Shown one piece after another: positions 1 through 8,358 of a stretch of DNA of 32,925 bases (positions are counted from its first letter, which is position 1; each line of letters starts with the position of its first letter). Both the position numbers and the translations under genes were made by a program. Source of the stretch: an uncultured Verrucomicrobia subdivision 3 bacterium (lineage in GTDB: Bacteria; Verrucomicrobiota; Verrucomicrobiia; Limisphaerales; UBA8199); the NCBI GenBank assembly GCA_903913865.1, contig CAIWMU010000010.1:1-32925 (forward strand), given 5' to 3'. Under the pieces are notes generated by a model, which worked only from the letters and a program-made list of their open reading frames with translations, made no database searches and was not told the origin of the DNA.

Positions 1-255
1 GGCCCAGAACTTCTCAGCCTCGGCCTTCAGGACGAGCGTCTTGTAGTGGTTGTGAACGATGTCGGTGCTGCGGTGCCCCATTTGCTGCGCCGTCTTTCCC
101 CCATCCCCATAAAGTGCCAGATGGTAGGAACCGAAAGAGTGGCGAAGCCCGTTTCGAGGCCAGGATTCAATTCCGGCACTGGCCTTGAGTCCCAGCATGT
201 TCTCCCGGAACTCCTGCTCAAAGAAGGCAACCCTGATCTGGCTAAGCCCGCCAAC
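1..255 (-). pseudogene. Tyrosine recombinase (integrase), C-terminal fragment
   Basis: The minus-strand frame is open for 85 codons from an in-frame stop at 256-258 down to the window edge. It carries the C-terminal catalytic core of a phage/island-type tyrosine recombinase: box II NGLRHSFGSYH (catalytic Arg at fragment residue 38), the MGH motif (His61), and HNHY with the nucleophilic tyrosine at residue 71, followed by LVLKAEAEKFW. The N-terminal DNA-binding domain and the first catalytic Arg/Lys boxes are missing. I could not recognise them in any frame of 256-590, so the gene is truncated at its 5' end. The natural C-terminus may lie to the left of the window. It reads away from the tRNA-end fragment at 591-618 and is probably the relic of the enzyme that used that site. 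The family call is firm; calling it a pseudogene assumes no upstream exon was missed. Confidence 0.8.
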
Positions 256-590
256 CTAGGTGCTGGACCATTTCCAACCGTTAAAGCACATACCCAGGGG
301 GCGAGCCAGCAAACTAGGAACCCCGTCCCCTGGTTCAGAATCCAAACCCTAACAAACCGGATCGACTTTCAAAGCGCGCCTATAACAGTGCAGCTCAGGA
401 TGAGACTTTGAGAGGTGCCTCGGACGATTCATCACAAAAATGGCAATCTGAGATTTTAATGACAATTAATGACAATGTGGGGTGCTTTTGCTGCACTTAC
501 GTGCATCTTGAGTACTTTTGCCACTTTGGCGTAAGTGGCGTATTATGCGTTATTTGCGCCAATTACAGGCTTTTAACGAGGTGCCTTATT
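256..590. other. Gene-free attachment-site flank with short repeats
   Basis: No convincing coding frame is present; the long frames here run across the tRNA fragment and have no recognisable protein. The stretch is more AT-rich than the rest of the window. Its right half contains a perfect 10-bp tandem repeat (TTAATGACAA at 457-466 and 467-476) and a dense set of short direct and inverted repeats between 485 and 540. Position and composition fit integrase/excisionase arm-binding DNA beside an attachment site, but that role is inference. Confidence 0.5.
485..540. repeat. Cluster of short direct and inverted repeats beside att site
   Basis: CTTTTGC occurs at 485-491 and 515-521, each followed by a CACTT-containing stretch. 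CACTTAC (494-500) is the inverse of GTAAGTG (531-537), and GCCACTT (520-526) is the inverse of AAGTGGC (533-539). Such repeated half-sites next to an attachment core are typical of arm sites bound by tyrosine recombinases or their directionality factors. No protein-binding data are available. Confidence 0.5.
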
Positions 591-618
591 GTGAGTTCAA
601 ATCTCACCGCCCCGACCA
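591..618 (+). other. 3'-terminal tRNA fragment (probable att site)
   Basis: The 28 nt form a complete T-arm (stem GTGAG 591-595, loop TTCAAAT 596-602, stem CTCAC 603-607). They continue with a 7-nt acceptor strand CGCCCCG (608-614), discriminator A615 and encoded CCA (616-618), then a run of six T. The matching acceptor 5' strand (CGGGGCG), D-arm and anticodon arm are absent upstream, so this is not a functional tRNA. The implied C1-G72 pair with A73 is characteristic of tRNA-Pro. Tyrosine recombinases commonly integrate at tRNA 3' ends and leave such a displaced 3' fragment at the distal end of the element. The orientation predicts an intact tRNA to the left of the window. Confidence 0.75.
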
Positions 619-895
619 TTTTTTATTGGGAAATTCAACAATTCACTCACTTTCCTAACGCGTTTCTCATGACCAGGAAACTCGTTCCGGTGGGGTGTTT
701 TCAGGCTTTTTCGCACTTTTTCCAATTTTCCGCTCTGCATGCCACATTGTGCAACACGGTGCCAAGCCACCACCCGGAACCAACACAACCAACCACACCA
801 AAGCCCTTCAGGCCTATTTTCCCGAAGGGCTGCCGGGCGCAGGCCGCAAAGCCCTTCACCGTTTTCCCGCGAGTGACCCCATCGCCCGGGGCATG

Positions 896-940
896 AAAAA
901 AACCCCTGCCGCACTTCCTTTGGGGTGTGCGGACAGGGGT
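896..940 (-). terminator. Rho-independent terminator, copy 1
   Basis: On the minus strand an imperfect stem pairs ACCCCTG-CCGCAC (902-914) with GTGCGG-A-CAGGGGT (927-940), followed by seven T (complement of 896-902). It is the duplicate of the lpdA terminator at 2774-2817 and would end any transcript crossing the orphan lpdA fragment. Confidence 0.8.
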
Positions 941-960
941 GTGAAAAACTGCGGGTGGGG

Positions 961-1303
961 CTACTGGGCCTTTTTCCGGACCAGGGTGTGGGTGGCGTGG
1001 CCGTAAAAGCCCTCGGCCGCCTCCATGATGGTCTCAGAGAGGGTCGGGTGCGGATGCACGGTCAGGGCGATATCCTTGGCTGTGGCCCCCATCTCGATGG
1101 CAAGCGCCCCCTCGGAGATGAGTTCACCGGCCCCGTATCCCACGATGCCCACGCCAAGCACGCGCTCGGTGTCGGGATCGATGATCAGCTTGGTCAGGCC
1201 TTCGGGATGGTCAAAGGAGAGCGCACGCCCGGAGGCGGCCCACGGGAATTTGGAGACCTGGACCGCAATTCCCTTTGCCTTGGCCTCCGTCAATCCACAC
1301 CAG
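961..1303 (-). pseudogene. Orphan C-terminal fragment of dihydrolipoamide dehydrogenase
   Basis: The frame encodes the dimerisation domain of the E3 enzyme, including the active-site HPHPTLSE motif. It matches the C-terminus of the full-length lpdA at 2838-4256 residue for residue, apart from loss of one Ala-Glu pair (TEAEAKAKG becomes TEAKAKG). The FAD domain, the redox-active cysteine pair and the NAD domain are missing, so it cannot be an active enzyme. Upstream the homology stops at 1303, where a fragment of an unrelated secreted-protein gene begins on the other strand. An ATG at 1291-1293 gives a nominal 110-residue frame, but there is no reason to think it is translated. The normal stop codon and terminator are retained. 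Confidence 0.9.
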
Positions 1304-1555
1304 TCTGGCTACACGAATACCCCTGTTATTCGGATTGCCTCTCCACCGTTCATCCCTTGGTTGGCAATGGCCATCAGCAAAGTCAAAGTCACCCAGCATG
1401 TCGTTCTCGGCAAGAACTACGTCCTCGAATCCTCCTTCAACCTTCAAACGTGGAATCTGGCGGGGAGTCAATTCACGGCTGATGATGAAGTGATCACTTT
1501 GGAGTTTGATGCAGATGTAACAGGTCGGTTTTTCAGAATTCGGCAAGTTCCGTAG
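1304..1555 (+). pseudogene. C-terminal fragment of a secreted protein
   Basis: After the lpdA homology breaks off, a plus-strand frame runs to the TAG at 1553-1555. It encodes about 83 residues, including VTQHVVLGKNYVLESS, a Leu-Gln-Thr-Trp segment, and the end GRFFRIRQVP. This pattern (a Tyr-x-Leu-Glu-Ser-Ser strand, a Trp, then a final aromatic-Arg strand) is a recurrent C-terminal beta-sandwich tail of large extracellular proteins in Verrucomicrobiota. I recognise the style but not a named family. The 5' end is missing because the frame enters the inverted lpdA fragment. A strong terminator follows 17 bp after the stop, so this is the genuine 3' end of a gene whose body has been lost or lies elsewhere. 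Confidence 0.6.
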
Positions 1556-1571
1556 ATTCTGATTCTCGAAC

Positions 1572-1605
1572 GAGCCCCATCGACTCTCGGTCGGTGGGGC
1601 TCTTT
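1572..1605 (+). terminator. Rho-independent terminator
   Basis: GAGCCCCA (1572-1579) pairs with TGGGGCTC (1595-1602). An inner CGAC/GTCG extension closes a 5-nt loop, and TTT follows. It lies 17 bp after the stop of the secreted-protein fragment and presumably served that gene. Confidence 0.8.
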
Positions 1606-1821
1606 AACTACACAATCCTTCCTTGTCACAGTAAAGTTGGGTCGGGAATGGGATTTTGCCCTCGATAGCTTTGGTTGTTAAGGAATTCAAAGTCAGCATT
1701 CGGAGGTTTCCCCACCAATCTTCAGAATTCGAGATCGTTGATTCCCCACCATTTCCGACTGGTTAAGGCTCCCATGAAACTTCAAATGGACAATTTCTTG
1801 ATGACTTGCCATGTTGAAGTC

Positions 1822-2652
1822 ATGTTCGAGCGACACCTAATTTTCAAATTGGTTGGGATTCTTTGCTTAGTCTGTCTGTTGGGGTGCGGCTCTAAGACGA
1901 GATCTACAGGTGTCGGTGCGAAAAACAGAACACTCTCTTTTGACGGCCTCATGGCCGAGGCAGACGCAGGTGACGCTGATGCTCAGTCTGCACTTGGCTA
2001 TCGTTATGACACGGGTATAGGCGTAGAGCAAGACCCCAAGGAGGCACTCAGGTGGTATAGGAAAGCAGCCGAGCAGGGGCTTGCCGAGGCCCAAAATAAT
2101 CTTGGAGCACTCTATCGCAAAGGCGAAGGGGTTGAGAAGGACTACAAGGAGGCCGTCAGGTGGCATAGGAAAGCAGCGGACCAGGGACATCCCCGGGCCC
2201 AAAATAATCTTGGAGCACTTTATGGTAATGGCCAAGGGGTTGAGAAGGACTCCAAAGAGGCCGTTAAGTGGTATTTGAAGGCTGCCGAGCAAGGAGATGC
2301 CTCAGCCCAGTTTAATCTTGGAGTCTGCTATGGCGATGGTCAAGGGGTTGAGAAGGACTACAAGGAGGCTTTCAAGTGGTATTTGAAGGCTGCCGAGCAA
2401 GGAGATGCCTCAGCCCAGGTCAATGTTGGAGCCATCTATTGCAATGGTAGAGGGGTTGAGAAGGACTACGTTGAGGCCTATGCATGGTTGAACATCTCAG
2501 CAGCAAACGGTAACGAATTAGGCAGGAGCAACCTTCATGACATAAAAAAATGGATATCCTCCGAACGGGTGGCCAAAGCTCAAGAACGGACGAAACAGAT
2601 CAAAGCTGAGATCAGTGCAAAGCAGGCCAAAGTGGCTTGGTTGGCTAAGTAG
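1822..2652 (+). CDS. Sel1-repeat (SLR) lipoprotein
   Basis: This is a predicted 276-residue lipoprotein. The start at ATG 1822 is chosen because it gives a compact signal peptide (MFERHLIFKLVG, then a leucine-rich core) ending in the lipobox LLGC; ATG 1774 and 1801 are in-frame alternatives. After lipidation the mature protein has five tandem 36-residue Sel1-like repeats with the consensus A-x-x-x-LG-x-x-Y-x-x-G-x-GV-x-x-D-x-x-EA-x-x-W. A charged helical C-terminus follows (SSERVAKAQERTKQIKAE). Sel1 solenoids mediate protein-protein contacts, and no enzymatic residues are expected. At DNA level the repeats are 108 bp apart and partly near-identical (e.g. around 2270-2312 and 2378-2420), indicating recent internal expansion. 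Codon use is more AT-rich than the neighbours. The gene sits between the two lpdA 3' copies and looks acquired. Partner unknown. Confidence 0.85.
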   Translation: MFERHLIFKLVGILCLVCLLGCGSKTRSTGVGAKNRTLSFDGLMAEADAGDADAQSALGYRYDTGIGVEQDPKEALRWYRKAAEQGLAEAQNNLGALYRKGEGVEKDYKEAVRWHRKAADQGHPRAQNNLGALYGNGQGVEKDSKEAVKWYLKAAEQGDASAQFNLGVCYGDGQGVEKDYKEAFKWYLKAAEQGDASAQVNVGAIYCNGRGVEKDYVEAYAWLNISAANGNELGRSNLHDIKKWISSERVAKAQERTKQIKAEISAKQAKVAWLAK

Positions 2653-2674
2653 GGTTTCCCGATTTCTTGCGTGC

Positions 2675-3186
2675 GTGCAACACGGTGCAAAATGGCCACC
2701 CGGAACCAACACAACCACCAACACCAAAGCCCTTCACCGTTTTCCCGCGAGTGACCCCATCGCCCGGGGCATCAAAAAACCCCTGCCGCACTTCCAGAGG
2801 GGCGTGCGGACAGGGGTGTGAAAAACTGCGGGTCGGGCTACTGGGCCTTTTTCCGGACCAGGGTGTGGGTGGCGTGGCCGTAAAAGCCCTCGGCCGCTTC
2901 CATGATGGTCTCGGAGAGGGTCGGGTGCGGATGCACGGTCAGGGCGATATCCTTGGCTGTGGCCCCCATCTCGATGGCAAGCGCCCCCTCGGAGATGAGT
3001 TCACCGGCCCCGTATCCCACGATGCCCACGCCAAGCACACGCTCGGTGTCGGGATCGATGATCAGCTTGGTCAGGCCTTCGGGATGGTCAAAGGAGAGCG
3101 CACGCCCGGAGGCGGCCCAAGGGAATTTGGATACCTGAACGGCAATTCCCTTTGCCTTGGCCTCGGCCTCTGTCAATCCACACCAG
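2675..3186. repeat. Duplicated lpdA 3' end and terminator, copy 2
   Basis: This is the partner of 749-1303 and forms the 3' end of the intact lpdA plus its terminator and about 100 bp downstream. It lacks the 48-bp unit of copy 1, leaving a single AAAGCCCTTCA. Five of the eight coding substitutions and the 6-bp indel lie in the last ~55 bp before the junction at 3186; the rest of the coding homology has only three differences. Confidence 0.9.
2774..2817 (-). terminator. Rho-independent terminator of the aceE-aceF-lpdA operon
   Basis: On the minus strand, ACCCCTG-T-CCGCAC and GTGCGG-CAGGGGT form a long GC-rich stem (2779-2817) with a 12-nt loop, followed by six T (complement of 2774-2779). 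It lies 21 bp beyond the lpdA stop codon. Confidence 0.9.
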
Positions 3187-4256
3187 GCGAGTTCCGGCTG
3201 GGTGAAAACAACGGCGGGGATGGTGATATCCTGAAACGCACTGTCCTCACCGGCGATCACTTCAACAGCAATCCTGGCCTCCTTGCTGGCCTTGTGGGCG
3301 AGCAGGACACCGCCTGCAATATCACCGATGGCGTAGATGTATGGATCGGTGGTCTGCTGCTTGTCGTTGACGTGGATGAATCCCCTTTCGTCGAAGGACA
3401 CCTTGGTGTTTTCAAGCCCCATGTCGCCGGCGTTTGCGGAGCGGCCCACGGCGATCAACACACGGTCGTAAAGTTCCTCTTTCTTCTCGCCTGCCATGTC
3501 GAACTCGACCTTGATCTGCTTGCCACAGGTGGACATCTTCGAGACCTTGGTCTTGAGACGCATCTCGCGGAAGTTCTTCTTCGCGTAATTGATGATCGGG
3601 CGGGCCAGATCCGGATCGGCACCGGCCAGGATGCTGTCCATGGCCTCAACCAGCACGACCTTGCTGCCCATTTCGGCATAGACCGTGCCCAGTTCCATCC
3701 CGATGTAGCCACCCCCGATGATCAGAAGATTCTCGGGGATGTCCTCGATCTCCAAGGCCTCGGTAGAGGTCATGACCCGGGGATTGCCCAGATCAAAGGC
3801 CTTGGGAAGTGCGGGCCGGGAACCGACCGCCACAATGGCGTTCTCGTAGCTGATCAACTGCTGTCCCTGCTCCGTCTCCACACGCAGGGTGCGGGAATCT
3901 TCAAAGTAACCCCGGCCATGGATCACCTGCACTCCACGGGCCTTGGCCAACTGGGTGATGCCCCCGGAGAGCCGCTGCAGAATCGATTCCTTCCAGGCCC
4001 GAAGCTTGGGCAGGTCGATCACCGGCTCGGCAAACGTGATGCCACGCGAGGCCGACTGGCGGGCGGTGGCGATGGTATGGGAGGCATAGAGCAAAGCCTT
4101 GGAAGGAATGCACCCACGATTGAGGCAGGCTCCCCCGAGGCGCTTTTCCTTCTCAACGAGAATGACTTTCCTGCCCAGATCGGCGGCATAGAATGCGGCG
4201 GCATACCCACCGGGGCCGCCACCCACAACAACGATTTCAGTCTTTAACGGTTCCAT
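2838..4256 (-). CDS. lpdA: Dihydrolipoamide dehydrogenase (E3)
   Basis: A 472-residue flavoenzyme that reoxidises dihydrolipoyl-E2 with NAD+ in 2-oxoacid dehydrogenase complexes. The N-terminal FAD site GGGPGGYAAA is at residues 12-21. The redox-active disulfide motif GGACLNRGCIPSK has Cys44 and Cys49. The NAD-binding GGGYIGMELG lies in the middle domain, followed by a second FAD contact (YAIGDIAGG). The C-terminal dimer interface holds the active-site HPHPTLSE (His444, Glu449). The length is normal for the family. It is the last gene of the aceE-aceF-lpdA operon, 56 bp after aceF, and a strong terminator follows. The last ~350 bp are duplicated at 961-1303 with only synonymous differences, so the present 3' end may have been replaced during an integration or recombination event. 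All key residues are intact. Confidence 0.97.
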   Translation of the reverse strand: MEPLKTEIVVVGGGPGGYAAAFYAADLGRKVILVEKEKRLGGACLNRGCIPSKALLYASHTIATARQSASRGITFAEPVIDLPKLRAWKESILQRLSGGITQLAKARGVQVIHGRGYFEDSRTLRVETEQGQQLISYENAIVAVGSRPALPKAFDLGNPRVMTSTEALEIEDIPENLLIIGGGYIGMELGTVYAEMGSKVVLVEAMDSILAGADPDLARPIINYAKKNFREMRLKTKVSKMSTCGKQIKVEFDMAGEKKEELYDRVLIAVGRSANAGDMGLENTKVSFDERGFIHVNDKQQTTDPYIYAIGDIAGGVLLAHKASKEARIAVEVIAGEDSAFQDITIPAVVFTQPELAWCGLTEAEAKAKGIAVQVSKFPWAASGRALSFDHPEGLTKLIIDPDTERVLGVGIVGYGAGELISEGALAIEMGATAKDIALTVHPHPTLSETIMEAAEGFYGHATHTLVRKKAQ

Positions 4257-4312
4257 AAATTCTTGGAGATTCCCCGGGGCGCGTCCGGACGGTCCCGGGG
4301 TTGTGTCGGGAA

Positions 4313-5611
4313 TCAGGCGAGGACCGCGTCCTCATCCCTGAATTGTTCGATCGCCTTGATCAAGTCCACGGTGAACCGGGCGGCGATGCCGCCATCAATC
4401 ACCCTGTGGTCGTAGGACAGGCCGATAGGCATCATGAGGCGCGGTTCAATGTTCCCGCCACGCACCACGGCTTTGAGTGCCCCCCGGCCCAGCCCGAGAA
4501 TGGCCACTTCCGGCTTGTTGATGATGGGGGTGAAGTGCGCCCCGCCAATGCCACCCTGGTTTGAGATCGTGAACGTGCCGCCCTTCAGTTCATCACCGGA
4601 AACCTTGCGGTCCCGGGCGCGGCGGGCGAGATCCTCCAGCTCGCGGGAGATCTCGAGGATGCTCTTGCGATCCGCATCCCGGATGACCGGCACAATGAGC
4701 CCGGCCTCTGTATCCACCGCAATGCCGATGTGGACGTATTCCTTGAGGACGATCTCCTGGGAGGCCTCGTCCAGGCTGGAGTTGAAGATCGGATGCTTCT
4801 TCAGCGTTTCGGCAACGGCCTTGACCACGAACGGGGTCAGGGTGAGGCGTGTGCCTTTCGCCTCGTAGGCCGCAGCGTGCTTCTTGCGCAGCTCGTTCAA
4901 GGCGGTGATGTCGGCATCGTCGAACTGCGTGACGTGTGGAATCGCATTCCAGTTTTCCGTCATGCGGCGCGAGATGATCTGGCGCAGGGAGGACATCGGC
5001 TTCTTCGAAACCGGGCCCCACTTGGAGAAATCGATCGATTCGGCCACAACCTGTTTCGGCTGTCCCGGCTCGGCTGCCGCTTTCGGCTGGGAAGCCAGGC
5101 GTTGCAGGCGCTGAATGTAGCTGCGCACATCCTCCATCACGATGCGACCGCCCCTCTGGCTGCCCCGCACCTTTGTCAGATCAATGCCCAGATCACGTGC
5201 CAGTTTCCTGATCGAGGGGGATGTCGCCGGGACAGGGAAGGTTTCCACGGTCGGCTCGGCAGCCGGTGGCGCGACCGGCACGCCGGGCTCAGGATGGGGC
5301 GTCTGGATCGGTTCCGGCTCCTCATCCCGGGTGTTCCGGGGCGCAACCGCCTTGACCGGAGCCGCCACTGCTGGCGCCGCCCCGTCCCCAAGCGCGATCA
5401 GGCGGTGACCGACAGCAATCTTATCCCCGCTCTTCACATACACCTTGGATACGGTGCCGGCGCTGGACGAGGGAATCGTCGCCACAGCCTTTTCATTTTC
5501 CAGTTCGAGGATCGCCTGCCCTTTGGTGATGATGTCGCCCTCTTTGACGAACACATTGACGACCGTCCCGGTATCAGCCCCCTCACCCAGTGGTGGAAGT
5601 TTTACGTCCAT
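4313..5611 (-). CDS. aceF: Pyruvate dehydrogenase E2, dihydrolipoamide acetyltransferase
   Basis: A 432-residue core enzyme that carries the swinging lipoyl arm and transfers acetyl groups to CoA. It has a single N-terminal lipoyl domain (about 1-76) with the lipoylation site LENEKAVAT; Lys41 is the acceptor, and Asn-Glu replaces the more usual Thr-Asp before the lysine. A Pro/Ala-rich linker follows. The peripheral-subunit-binding domain (about 130-165) begins SPSIRKLARDLGIDL. After a second linker comes the catalytic domain (about 200-432), ending with SYDHRVIDGG, where His402 and Asp406 are catalytic. One lipoyl domain, rather than three as in E. coli AceF, is common outside the enterics. 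The start lies 5 bp after the E1 stop codon with no visible Shine-Dalgarno sequence, which suggests translational coupling. Confidence 0.95.
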   Translation of the reverse strand: MDVKLPPLGEGADTGTVVNVFVKEGDIITKGQAILELENEKAVATIPSSSAGTVSKVYVKSGDKIAVGHRLIALGDGAAPAVAAPVKAVAPRNTRDEEPEPIQTPHPEPGVPVAPPAAEPTVETFPVPATSPSIRKLARDLGIDLTKVRGSQRGGRIVMEDVRSYIQRLQRLASQPKAAAEPGQPKQVVAESIDFSKWGPVSKKPMSSLRQIISRRMTENWNAIPHVTQFDDADITALNELRKKHAAAYEAKGTRLTLTPFVVKAVAETLKKHPIFNSSLDEASQEIVLKEYVHIGIAVDTEAGLIVPVIRDADRKSILEISRELEDLARRARDRKVSGDELKGGTFTISNQGGIGGAHFTPIINKPEVAILGLGRGALKAVVRGGNIEPRLMMPIGLSYDHRVIDGGIAARFTVDLIKAIEQFRDEDAVLA

Positions 5612-5616
5612 AATAA

Positions 5617-8358
5617 TTATTTTGGAGAAATGGTTACCAATTCCGGAAACACCTTTTCCGGGTCGAGCCCAAGATCTTTGATGGCCTTGCCGAGGACTCC
5701 CGGCTCAATCTGGCCCTTCTCAAGCAGCGCATACAGGGTGGCCACAACGGTCATCTCGGCATCCACCTCAAAGAACCGCCTGAGGTTTGCCCGTGTATCA
5801 CTCCTGCCGAAGCCATCCGTGCCCAGCGTGGTCAACCCGCCCGGAATCCAGGGGGCAACCTGGTCGGGCACCAGTTTCAGATTGTCGGAGACGGCAACGA
5901 ACACGCCGGTTTCCCCCTCGAGGACCGTCTCGATGTGGGCCTTCCGGCGGGGTTCCCCGGGATGGAGCATGTTCCAGCGCTTCGCAAGAATAGCCTCCGT
6001 GCGGAGGTTCTTGTAGCTCGTTGCACTCCAGACATCCACGGAGACGTCGTATTTCTCCGCCAGAATTTCCTGCGCGCGGAGTGCTTCCCGGATGATCGGC
6101 CCGCTGCCGAAGATGTGTGCCTTGTGCTTCCGCCCGGCAACCCCCGGCTTGAACTTGTAGAGCCCCTTGAGAATGCCATCCTCCACCCCCGGCGGCATGG
6201 CTGGCATGGGATAGTTCTCGTTGTAAAGGGTGAGGTAATAAAACAGGTTCTCCCCCTCGGCATACATGCGGCGCATGCCATCGGCAATGATGATGGCCAG
6301 CTCGTAGCTGAACGCGGGATCATAGGTGACCATCGTGGGAATGGCGCTGGAGAACAGCAGGCTGTGCGCATCCTGGTGCTGCAGACCCTCGCCGTTCAGC
6401 GTCGTCCGGCCGGAGGTGGCCCCAAGGAGGAATCCCTTGGCGCGAATATCCCCGGCAAGCCACATCAGATCCCCGATCCGCTGGAAGCCGAACATCGAAT
6501 AATAGATGTAGAACGGCACCATGTAGCGGTTGTTCGTGGCATAGGCGGTGCCTGCGGCCACAAACGATGCCATGGCACCGGCCTCGGTAATGCCCTCCTC
6601 CAGAATCTGGCCATCCTTCGCCTCGTGATAGAACAGCAGGGACTTGATGTCCACTGGCTCATAGAGCTGGCCTTTGGTGGAGTAAATCCCGACCTCTCGG
6701 AACAGGGCATCCAGACCGAAGGTCCTCGCCTCATCCGGAATGATCGGAACGACCTGTCGCCCGACCTCTTTATCCCGGATCAGCAGGCTGATGAGCCGCA
6801 CAAAGCCCATGGTGGTCGAAACCTCGAACTTCCCTGAGCCCTTGTAAAACTCGGCAAAGAACTCCCTGCCGGGCACCTTCAACGGCTCCGCCTCCACCAC
6901 ACGGCGGGGAAGGAAACCGCCCAGCTTCTTGCGGCGCTGCAAAAGATATTTCCGCTCGGGGCTGTCATTCGCGGGCCTGAAAAACGGGGTCTCCGCAATC
7001 TCCTCATCGCTGACGGGAATGCGGAACCGCTCACGAAACTCACGCAGTTCGCGCTCGTTCAGCTTCTTCTGCTGGTGGGTGATGTTGCGCCCCTCACCCG
7101 CTTCGCCAAGTCCGTATCCCTTGACCGTCTTGGCCAGGATCACGGTCGGCTGCCCCTTGTGCTCGGTGGCCGCCTTGTAGGCAGCATAGACCTTGCGTGT
7201 GTCATGCCCGCCGCGAAGCAGCTTGTGAATCTGCTCGTCGCTCAAGTGGTTCACCAGCTTGAGCAGCTCGGGATATTTGCCAAAGAAATGGCGCCGGGTG
7301 TAGCTGCCCGGTTCCACGGAATACTTCTGGTAATCGCCATCAACCGCCTCCTCCATCCGCTTGAGGAGCAACCCGGACTTGTCAGCAGCCAGGAGGGCAT
7401 CCCAATCGGCACCCCAAATCACCTTGATGACATTCCAGCCAGCCCCCTGGAAAGCGGCTTCCAGTTCCTGGATGATCTTCCCGTTTCCACGAACAGGACC
7501 GTCCAGCCTCTGCAGATTGCAGTTGACCACCCAAACCAGATTGTCCAAACCCTCCCGGGAGGCCAGGGTCAGCGCCCCGAGACTTTCGGGCTCATCCGAC
7601 TCTCCGTCCCCAACGAAAGCCCACACCTTCGGTTCCGGCCCGGTTGTCAGATTCCGGGACCGCAGATAACGGTTGAACCGGGCCTGGTAAATCGAGCAGA
7701 GAGGCCCCAACCCCATGGAGACGGTCGGGAACTGCCAGAAGTCCGGCATCAAATAGGGATGCGGATAGGAGGACAGCCCACCCTCCGGAGACAATTCCTG
7801 GCGAAAACGGTGGAGATCGTTCTCATCTAGACGCCCCTCCAGATAGGCCCGGGCGTAGATGCCCGGCGTGGCGTGACCCTGAAAGTAAACCATGTCCCCC
7901 ACGAAATCATCGTGACGGGCACGGAAAAAGTGGTTGAAAGCCACCTCGTAGAGGGTGGCCGCAGATGCGTAGCTCGAAATATGACCGCCCAGACCGTTGT
8001 GCTTGCGGTTGGCGTTCACCACCATGGCCATGGCATTCCAGCGCACATAGCTCTTGATGCGGCGCTCCATGTCCCAATCCCCCGGGAAGGCTGCCTGCTT
8101 CTCCACCGGAATGGTGTTGATATAGGGGGTGCTTACGACATGGGGCACTTCCAGACCCCGGGCACGAAGGCGATCGGTGAGGTTGTCCAGAAACCGGGTG
8201 GTCTTCTGCGCTCCAAGATCCTTGAGAGCATACTCCAGCACGGATTCCAGGGAGCCCAGATACGCATCCTGCTCCGAGCCTTCCGGCCCGGAAACCGGTG
8301 CGGATACGGGCGCCGCGCCACTTTCTTCCTTCTTCGGTAATTTCACTTTATCGTTCAA
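5617..8358 (-). CDS. aceE: Pyruvate dehydrogenase E1, homodimeric type
   Basis: A 913-residue thiamine-diphosphate enzyme of the single-chain AceE class that decarboxylates pyruvate and acetylates the E2 lipoyl group. The ThDP/Mg motif begins GDGESDEPESLG and ends NCNLQRLDGPV. Other family signatures are SSYPHPYLMPDFWQFPTVSM near the N-terminus, TVKGYGLGEAGEGRNITHQQ in the middle, and TSGRTTLNGEGLQHQDAHS in the pyrimidine-binding half. The length is close to the ~890 residues of E. coli AceE, with about 25 extra Pro/Ser/Glu-rich residues at the N-terminus. The called start is TTG at 8358; GTG at 8346 is an alternative, and neither has a clear ribosome-binding site. First gene of the pdh operon, divergent from the lipoate ligase-like gene. 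Confidence 0.95.
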   Translation of the reverse strand: MNDKVKLPKKEESGAAPVSAPVSGPEGSEQDAYLGSLESVLEYALKDLGAQKTTRFLDNLTDRLRARGLEVPHVVSTPYINTIPVEKQAAFPGDWDMERRIKSYVRWNAMAMVVNANRKHNGLGGHISSYASAATLYEVAFNHFFRARHDDFVGDMVYFQGHATPGIYARAYLEGRLDENDLHRFRQELSPEGGLSSYPHPYLMPDFWQFPTVSMGLGPLCSIYQARFNRYLRSRNLTTGPEPKVWAFVGDGESDEPESLGALTLASREGLDNLVWVVNCNLQRLDGPVRGNGKIIQELEAAFQGAGWNVIKVIWGADWDALLAADKSGLLLKRMEEAVDGDYQKYSVEPGSYTRRHFFGKYPELLKLVNHLSDEQIHKLLRGGHDTRKVYAAYKAATEHKGQPTVILAKTVKGYGLGEAGEGRNITHQQKKLNERELREFRERFRIPVSDEEIAETPFFRPANDSPERKYLLQRRKKLGGFLPRRVVEAEPLKVPGREFFAEFYKGSGKFEVSTTMGFVRLISLLIRDKEVGRQVVPIIPDEARTFGLDALFREVGIYSTKGQLYEPVDIKSLLFYHEAKDGQILEEGITEAGAMASFVAAGTAYATNNRYMVPFYIYYSMFGFQRIGDLMWLAGDIRAKGFLLGATSGRTTLNGEGLQHQDAHSLLFSSAIPTMVTYDPAFSYELAIIIADGMRRMYAEGENLFYYLTLYNENYPMPAMPPGVEDGILKGLYKFKPGVAGRKHKAHIFGSGPIIREALRAQEILAEKYDVSVDVWSATSYKNLRTEAILAKRWNMLHPGEPRRKAHIETVLEGETGVFVAVSDNLKLVPDQVAPWIPGGLTTLGTDGFGRSDTRANLRRFFEVDAEMTVVATLYALLEKGQIEPGVLGKAIKDLGLDPEKVFPELVTISPK

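Follow-up and report, generated by a model that had tools for sequence, protein, structure and literature searches.

The 3′ end of lpdA, the gene for dihydrolipoamide dehydrogenase, stands twice in the 32,925-nucleotide stretch analysed here (the window), which is the entire contig CAIWMU010000010.1 of an uncultured Verrucomicrobia subdivision 3 bacterium (assembly GCA_903913865.1; 267 contigs, 6.27 Mb, 95% complete, contamination estimate 2.08%). One tail completes an intact lpdA gene and the other lies downstream as a displaced fragment, beyond a low-GC insert; their coding parts differ by synonymous substitutions and one in-frame indel. The same layout occurs in a genome of another family, and a member of that genome's genus carries lpdA uninterrupted. 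We propose that the tail was replaced by break repair at a recurrent lpdA site, with a targeted break by a homing-type endonuclease as the likely trigger, a reading that we hold tentatively and give a little less than an even chance. The window structure is known from one assembly; comparison genomes, contigs and loci are referred to by our own G, C and L numbers.

The two lpdA tails diverged synonymously

Local alignment returned the repeat at the coordinates given by the initial annotation, 749–1303 and 2675–3186, with 485 of 506 ungapped columns identical (95.8%), a similarity far above chance level. The intact lpdA gene (2838–4256, minus strand; 472 aa, with PF07992 and PF02852) ends in copy 2, whose tail (2838–3186, minus strand) is fused to it in frame and is followed by the lpdA terminator and downstream DNA (2675–2837, minus strand). 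Copy 1 holds the displaced tail from Trp358 to the stop codon (961–1303, minus strand), a fragment of the Pyr_redox_dim domain, together with its own terminator and downstream DNA (749–960, minus strand), of which 163 bases align with 2675–2837. At the DNA level the homology edge falls at the third position of lpdA codon 357, and the displaced fragment starts at codon 357/358.

The coding part contains eight substitutions in eight codons (ACG/ACA, GCG/GCC, GTC/GTT, GTC/GTA, CCG/CCT, CGC/CGT, TCT/TCC and GAG/GAA), and all eight are synonymous. The remaining coding difference is a 6-bp in-frame gap, where copy 1 is without one GAGGCC unit and TEAEAKAK becomes TEAKAK. Re-alignment thus agrees with the initial annotation's count and yields no non-synonymous difference. 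The non-coding part, previously described as having a 48-bp indel and several changes, shows 13 mismatches in 163 aligned bases plus gaps of 48 bp and 1 bp. In the alignment, the 48-bp gap is bordered by a 12-bp direct repeat, TGAAGGGCTTTG, and therefore has the appearance of a plain deletion from copy 2.

We calculated how often such a pattern would arise under neutral drift of one or both copies. If all changes were neutral, the probability that eight of eight are synonymous is 1.6e-5 to 5.6e-5, and with a functional copy 2 and a drifting copy 1 it is 0.0007 to 0.0018. Scaled to the non-coding divergence, a drifting copy 1 would be expected to carry about 10 non-synonymous changes, and none was observed (P ~5e-5). 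Because the synonymous-only pattern is improbable under drift, the two tails most probably accumulated their differences as parts of functional genes, and one of them was severed recently, as the initial annotation had argued against decay in place. On the same grounds we reject an in-situ duplication followed by decay of the fragment (P ~0.001).

The differences are unevenly placed along the tails. Five of the eight lie within the first 22 codons past the junction (Fisher's test, 0.006, with the groups picked post hoc), and a scan test gives P = 0.057. Such clustering would fit a recoded target site, to which it points weakly. The longest stretch over which the tails are identical measures 125 bp and is situated well within them, away from the junction. 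At the 5′ edge of the homology stand 15 identical bases, CTGGTGTGGATTGAC, of a kind that any homology edge may show.

The junction joins two truncated genes

The insert between the copies measures 1,371 bp and has a GC content of 48.6–50.5% (54.5% in its last 22 bases); GC is 60–64% in lpdA, both tails and the remaining contig. Directly abutting the lpdA fragment is the end of another gene (1304–1555, plus strand), supported by protein matches in G018 and G015. Three of these matches span residues 1–83 inside longer frames, which measure 399 and 477 aa in G018 and 368 aa in G015 (the G015 frame contains one stop), and the gene consequently appears cut at the junction. The junction at 1303/1304 is non-homologous and joins two truncated genes, and the edge of the cargo is accordingly a truncated gene and no clean element end. 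The rest of the cargo includes a gene for a Sel1-repeat protein (1774–2652, plus strand; PF08238 in five stretches; GC 50.5%), which PADLOC matches weakly to PtuA (2e-6). We found no integrase gene within 1304–3186 and no nuclease among the insert proteins scanned, namely the Sel1 protein and the gene tail.

The lpdA layout recurs in another family

We searched genomes of the order for LpdA tails, first in a set of 196 genomes (139 with a match) and then in an enlarged set of 320 (227 with a match). Two matches per genome were found in the window genome, G190 and G193 in the first set, and G213 joined them in the second. G193 has two full-length lpdA genes on separate contigs (C142 and C82; L118 and L119), and the second match of G213 is absent from the 9-kb stretch examined, which holds no displaced tail. 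Nor is there a displaced tail in the stretches examined of G193 or of G186, G046 and G252, which have short lpdA frames; some of these stretches stop at a contig end. A DNA search listed no second lpdA tail in the other 39 relatives. Of two short matches, the weak one of 103 bp in G022 belongs to a full-length paralogue with 39% identity, and the one of 32 bp in G027 is no LpdA. Among the 320 genomes, with the second G213 match not located, we found one further genome with the layout of the window, G190, which belongs to another family.

The G190 contig (C259, 4,625 bp) cuts lpdA at its 5′ end and carries the displaced tail downstream on the same strand, at about 804–1147. One tblastn placed the start of the displaced tail at LpdA residue 356 for G190 and at residue 358 for the window; when the entire protein was used, the starts were 355 and 350, of which residue 350 lies beyond the DNA homology edge. 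The G190 tails are identical for nine bases beginning at position 3 of the Trp codon. Through G180, a member of the same genus, the resident sequence is traceable for about 7 bases further back, with one mismatch between. From this, the two edges lie within about 8 bp of each other. The G190 tails differ by 11 synonymous substitutions and one non-synonymous substitution, and their last codon before the stop also differs.

G180 has a single, uninterrupted lpdA gene. The 785-bp flank of the G190 displaced tail is found near it at 89% identity, about 220 bp further off than in G190, and nine bases just past the G180 lpdA stop codon are common to the G190 displaced tail. Since G180 carries this flank near an uninterrupted lpdA, the comparison supports a history in which the displaced tail and its flank are resident in G190 and the in-place tail arrived with the insert. 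The initial annotation had proposed that an incoming tail displaced the native gene end; that part of its account is supported by the layout and by the G190/G180 pair. Directly downstream of the G190 displaced tail (139–713 of L095), and also near the G180 lpdA, we noted a DUF433 and DUF5615/PIN-like gene pair that resembles a toxin–antitoxin system.

These comparisons bear on two other explanations. An old duplication of the whole lpdA gene, with both copies functional until one of them lost its 5′ part, together with part of a neighbouring gene, to a deletion, would also yield synonymous-only divergence, and one deletion would account for the junction of two truncated genes. However, a search of 12 other genomes of the family listed no second lpdA tail, and an old duplication predicts neither the shared cut point in G190 nor the low-GC cargo; we consider it highly improbable. 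Alternatively, the contig could be a chimera of the metagenome assembly that joins two strains. The genome is split into 267 contigs, the window starts at an integrase repeat that it has in common with contig C14, and a misjoin could bring both alleles of a gene end together in a single contig. Apart from the tails, we found no repeat in the genome at 1303/1304 that could cause a misjoin, the 125-bp identical block lies away from the junction, the contamination estimate is 2.08%, and another genome, G190, has this arrangement too, alongside a relative whose lpdA is uninterrupted. We consider a chimera quite improbable.

An endonuclease-like protein in the parallel insert

Between its two lpdA tails, G190 has a single long open reading frame (ORF) of 677 aa, convergent with lpdA. 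It matches the PHROG families 559 ('HNH endonuclease', 2e-45), 681 ('endonuclease', 7e-25) and 9084 ('homing endonuclease', 7e-7). At an E-value of 1e-8, homologues occur in 5 of the 320 genomes (G190, G087, G208, G073 and G120). An alignment of the G190, G208 and G087 proteins shows conserved zinc-ribbon cysteines, a nuclease-like core of the EHHG/EHNG..H type and a C-terminal repeat, which we take to be NUMOD-like. A comparison of the nuclease part with solved structures gave no match; by profile, there were six matches with E-values of 0.15 to 0.93 and no nuclease among them. PADLOC returned no match for the G190 ORF, no relatives were confirmed in viral contigs, and plasmids and phages gave only distant matches at about 24–25% identity (3 and 1 records). 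A profile search of the window insert with the G190 family found no match.

The G208 homologue (682 aa; L112, contig C95) lies in a similar arrangement at a different gene. It stands between a gene of the pyruvate:ferredoxin oxidoreductase (PFOR) type and a displaced second tail of the same gene; this tail occupies 73–354 of L112 at 82.6% identity. The PFOR-type gene (5073–6686 of L112) carries thiamine pyrophosphate and iron–sulphur domains, and its best NCBIfam match is pyruvate:ferredoxin oxidoreductase (7e-63, below the cut-off). The homologues in G073 and G120 lie near contig starts, and no fitting flanking direct repeat was seen in the stretches examined. L112 also contains a second duplicated stretch (352–620 and 2109–2377, 82.5%) that covers the terminal part of a small ORF, judged RelE/ParE-like by eye and without a Pfam match; one copy lies beside the displaced PFOR tail and the other near the endonuclease-like ORF.

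The same inserts can be examined for a site-specific integrative element. The e14 prophage of Escherichia coli integrates into icd, and similar elements integrate into the 3′ ends of other genes, duplicating the gene end so that one copy restores the gene. An element of this kind in the lpdA 3′ end, bringing its own tail, would leave two tails flanking an insert, would account for CTGGTGTGGATTGAC at the 5′ homology edge with wobble-rich divergence behind it, and would fit the recurrent site. The initial annotation had drawn this parallel, but no integrase, as implied by it, was found in window positions 1304–3186, nor does the one long ORF between the G190 tails show an integrase match. Moreover, the element edge in the window is a truncated gene, and the G190 copies share only nine identical bases at theirs. 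We regard such an element as quite unlikely.

Which tail is resident in the window

Comparison with relatives, by which the initial annotation had hoped to tell the resident allele, could be carried out with the congener G001 and did not settle the matter by identity: at the eight differing sites, G001 agrees with copy 1 at two, with copy 2 at two and with neither at four. Synteny past tRNA-Pro in G001 and C210 was of no help, as the neighbouring genes are absent or distantly related. A duplicate of the tRNA-Pro(GGG) 3′ end lies 118 bp away from copy 1. In relatives, this tRNA gene stands downstream of lpdA, on the same strand, in 5 of 10 loci (L035–L043 and L050) and in 6 of 29 loci of a second set (G001 is in both sets). 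For the one reason that the end of this frequent lpdA neighbour is nearby, we take copy 1 as the likely resident tail and copy 2 as the incoming one.

The tRNA-Pro(GGG) 3′-end copy itself, with 12 further nucleotides, occupies 591–630 (plus strand), is attR-like and is identical at 40 of 40 positions to contig C210; its orientation is opposite to that of lpdA, towards which it points. In C210 (L054 2006–3386) an integrase gene follows directly behind tRNA-Pro(GGG), and a different gene lies upstream of the tRNA. We read 591–630 as the probable far end of an island integrated in tRNA-Pro(GGG), with the island to its left. A possible arm-type site of an integrated island, a function assigned by its resemblance to the sequence downstream of tRNA-Pro(GGG) in C210 (29 of 32), lies at 452–482 (plus strand), outside the insertion.

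At the contig start, and likewise outside the insertion, lies the C-terminal fragment of a tyrosine recombinase (1–218, minus strand), which is the only integrase sequence in the examined part of the window and stands beyond the tRNA-Pro 3′-end copy. It is identical at 211 of 218 positions to an integrase ORF on contig C14 (L070 7994–9329), which stands behind tRNA-Ser(GCT) and is open to the contig end. A run of 141 bases is identical and is followed by 7 substitutions in 6 codons; five of these codons changed synonymously, and the sixth, an Arg/Gln codon, has two substitutions. No relatives of the C14 integrase were confirmed in viral contigs. We read the fragment as belonging to other islands. 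The window and C14 stop at the same point of the integrase, and the repeated element probably runs on.

A targeted break in lpdA as the likely trigger

The proposed history would begin when a close relative's DNA entered the lineage, bringing that relative's lpdA tail and terminator along with cargo (the Sel1 gene and part of another gene). A homing-type endonuclease would break lpdA at its conserved A-W-C-G-L-T codons, and the break would be mended by one-sided homologous repair. On the 5′ side, the incoming DNA would be joined by homology within or upstream of lpdA; on the other side, it would be attached to the resident lpdA at codon 357/358 with no homology involved. As a result, lpdA would remain complete, ending in a new tail, and the resident one would persist downstream as a dead fragment. 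These events would reproduce the window layout exactly. The endonuclease gene of the window insert may have been lost, may have acted from elsewhere or may never have been involved.

Two observations on G190 make a targeted break in lpdA the likely trigger: its event lies within about 8 bp of that in the window, and its cargo is endonuclease-like. The same two observations bear on homology-facilitated illegitimate recombination, in which DNA of a sibling strain, received by transformation or conjugation, uses homology for one of its junctions and a random position for the second, without a targeted break. Its product would be the one seen, with two truncated genes joined and a second tail allele present. 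The process is known (PMC3240628, in the part consulted) and, in the part of PMC5361080 consulted, is proposed as the source of displaced 3′ ends in Vibrio cholerae. It does not predict a break within about 8 bp in another family, which by a rough estimate has a chance of ~1–2% if junctions are uniform over lpdA, nor does it predict endonuclease-type cargo in G190. We consider illegitimate recombination fairly unlikely.

Several observations weigh against a targeted break followed by tail replacement. The lpdA cases total two, and the homology edge in G190 is fuzzy, with about 20 more upstream bases weakly similar. Identity failed to settle which G190 tail is resident, since neither is clearly nearer to the congeners (against G180, 92.7% for the displaced tail and 93.3% for the in-place tail). 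The Pfam matches of the G190 ORF are weak and below cut-off (DUF2726, treble clef), none of them naming a homing endonuclease, and an NCBIfam search of the ORF gave no match. The window insert has no endonuclease-like ORF, and its genome contains no homologue of the G190 ORF at an E-value of 1e-8. In G208 the displaced tail is decayed: besides gaps, it shows 13 synonymous substitutions and 15 in non-synonymous codons, the stop position being among the latter. In G087 (L111, contig C8) the homologue at 4184–5878 lies between two genes with no flanking repeat or tail duplication. Finally, the inverted orientation of the tRNA-Pro 3′ end with respect to lpdA indicates that the window locus was rearranged more than once.

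The window is thus no proven member of a class of endonuclease-carried tail replacements; it behaves like one, and we infer the trigger from G190 and G208. We offer a broader generalization with somewhat greater reserve than the reading of the window itself. Mobile endonuclease genes of bacteria may invade conserved metabolic genes, such as lpdA and the PFOR-type gene, without an intron or intein, bringing a replacement gene end so that the enzyme keeps working and the resident end is displaced. The window copy would have lost its endonuclease or been served in trans, and would now hold other cargo. Should the recurrent site hold, selfish DNA could occupy essential, conserved genes without splicing, by swapping the tail and keeping the gene. 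A targeted process would then exchange parts of housekeeping genes between strains, which matters for gene trees and for apparent pseudogene fragments.

Comparison with known systems

We found no literature on dihydrolipoamide dehydrogenase as an integration site, and, judged by titles and the beginnings of abstracts, no description of endonuclease-carried replacement of gene tails in bacteria. The window resembles e14 in icd in its duplicated gene end, of which one copy restores the gene, and in its mostly wobble differences. Unlike e14, the insert has no recombinase that we could find, and its cargo is truncated at the junction.

One-sided recombination is a known process (PMC3240628, in the part consulted), and the consulted part of PMC5361080 describes displaced effector and immunity gene ends at type VI secretion system loci of V. 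cholerae. As there, one side of the window event would be homologous, the other, at 1303/1304, is not, and the old 3′ end would have moved downstream. In contrast to V. cholerae, the break point recurs in conserved housekeeping codons, and, the indel aside, the two tails specify an identical protein sequence.

With its zinc ribbons, NUMOD-like C-terminal motif and EHHG/EHNG..H-type core, the G190-type ORF is similar to EDxHD/Vsr-like homing endonucleases such as I-Bth0305I, as these appear in the consulted part of PMC3943268. It differs from them in having no convincing match among solved structures; the G190-type protein is a putative nuclease by its sequence and is not encoded in the window. 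The arrangement also recalls free-standing homing endonuclease genes at exchange boundaries, where the nuclease gene stands at the point at which exchanged DNA begins; in the part of PMC10448857 consulted, those are described for phages.

The mobile endonuclease ORFs (mORFs) of fungal mitochondria differ from the present cases in several respects. Ours lie on bacterial chromosomes and in genes for metabolic enzymes, and the G190 ORF is rich in zinc ribbons, is neither of the LAGLIDADG nor of the GIY-YIG type and stands on the opposite strand. Because the window insert carries a Sel1 gene and no endonuclease gene, we do not file the window as a member of the mORF kind. According to the consulted part of PMC3630166, mORFs carry a foreign C-terminus of their host gene, in atp6 of Allomyces macrogynus and in atp6, atp9, cox2 and nad3 of Glomus. 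There, as here, the incoming end is fused in frame and an extra ORF is present. The resident end is displaced downstream in mORFs, as the G180 comparison supports for G190 and as is likely for the window, and one tail of Glomus atp6 shows nothing but synonymous differences from the gene of the relative.

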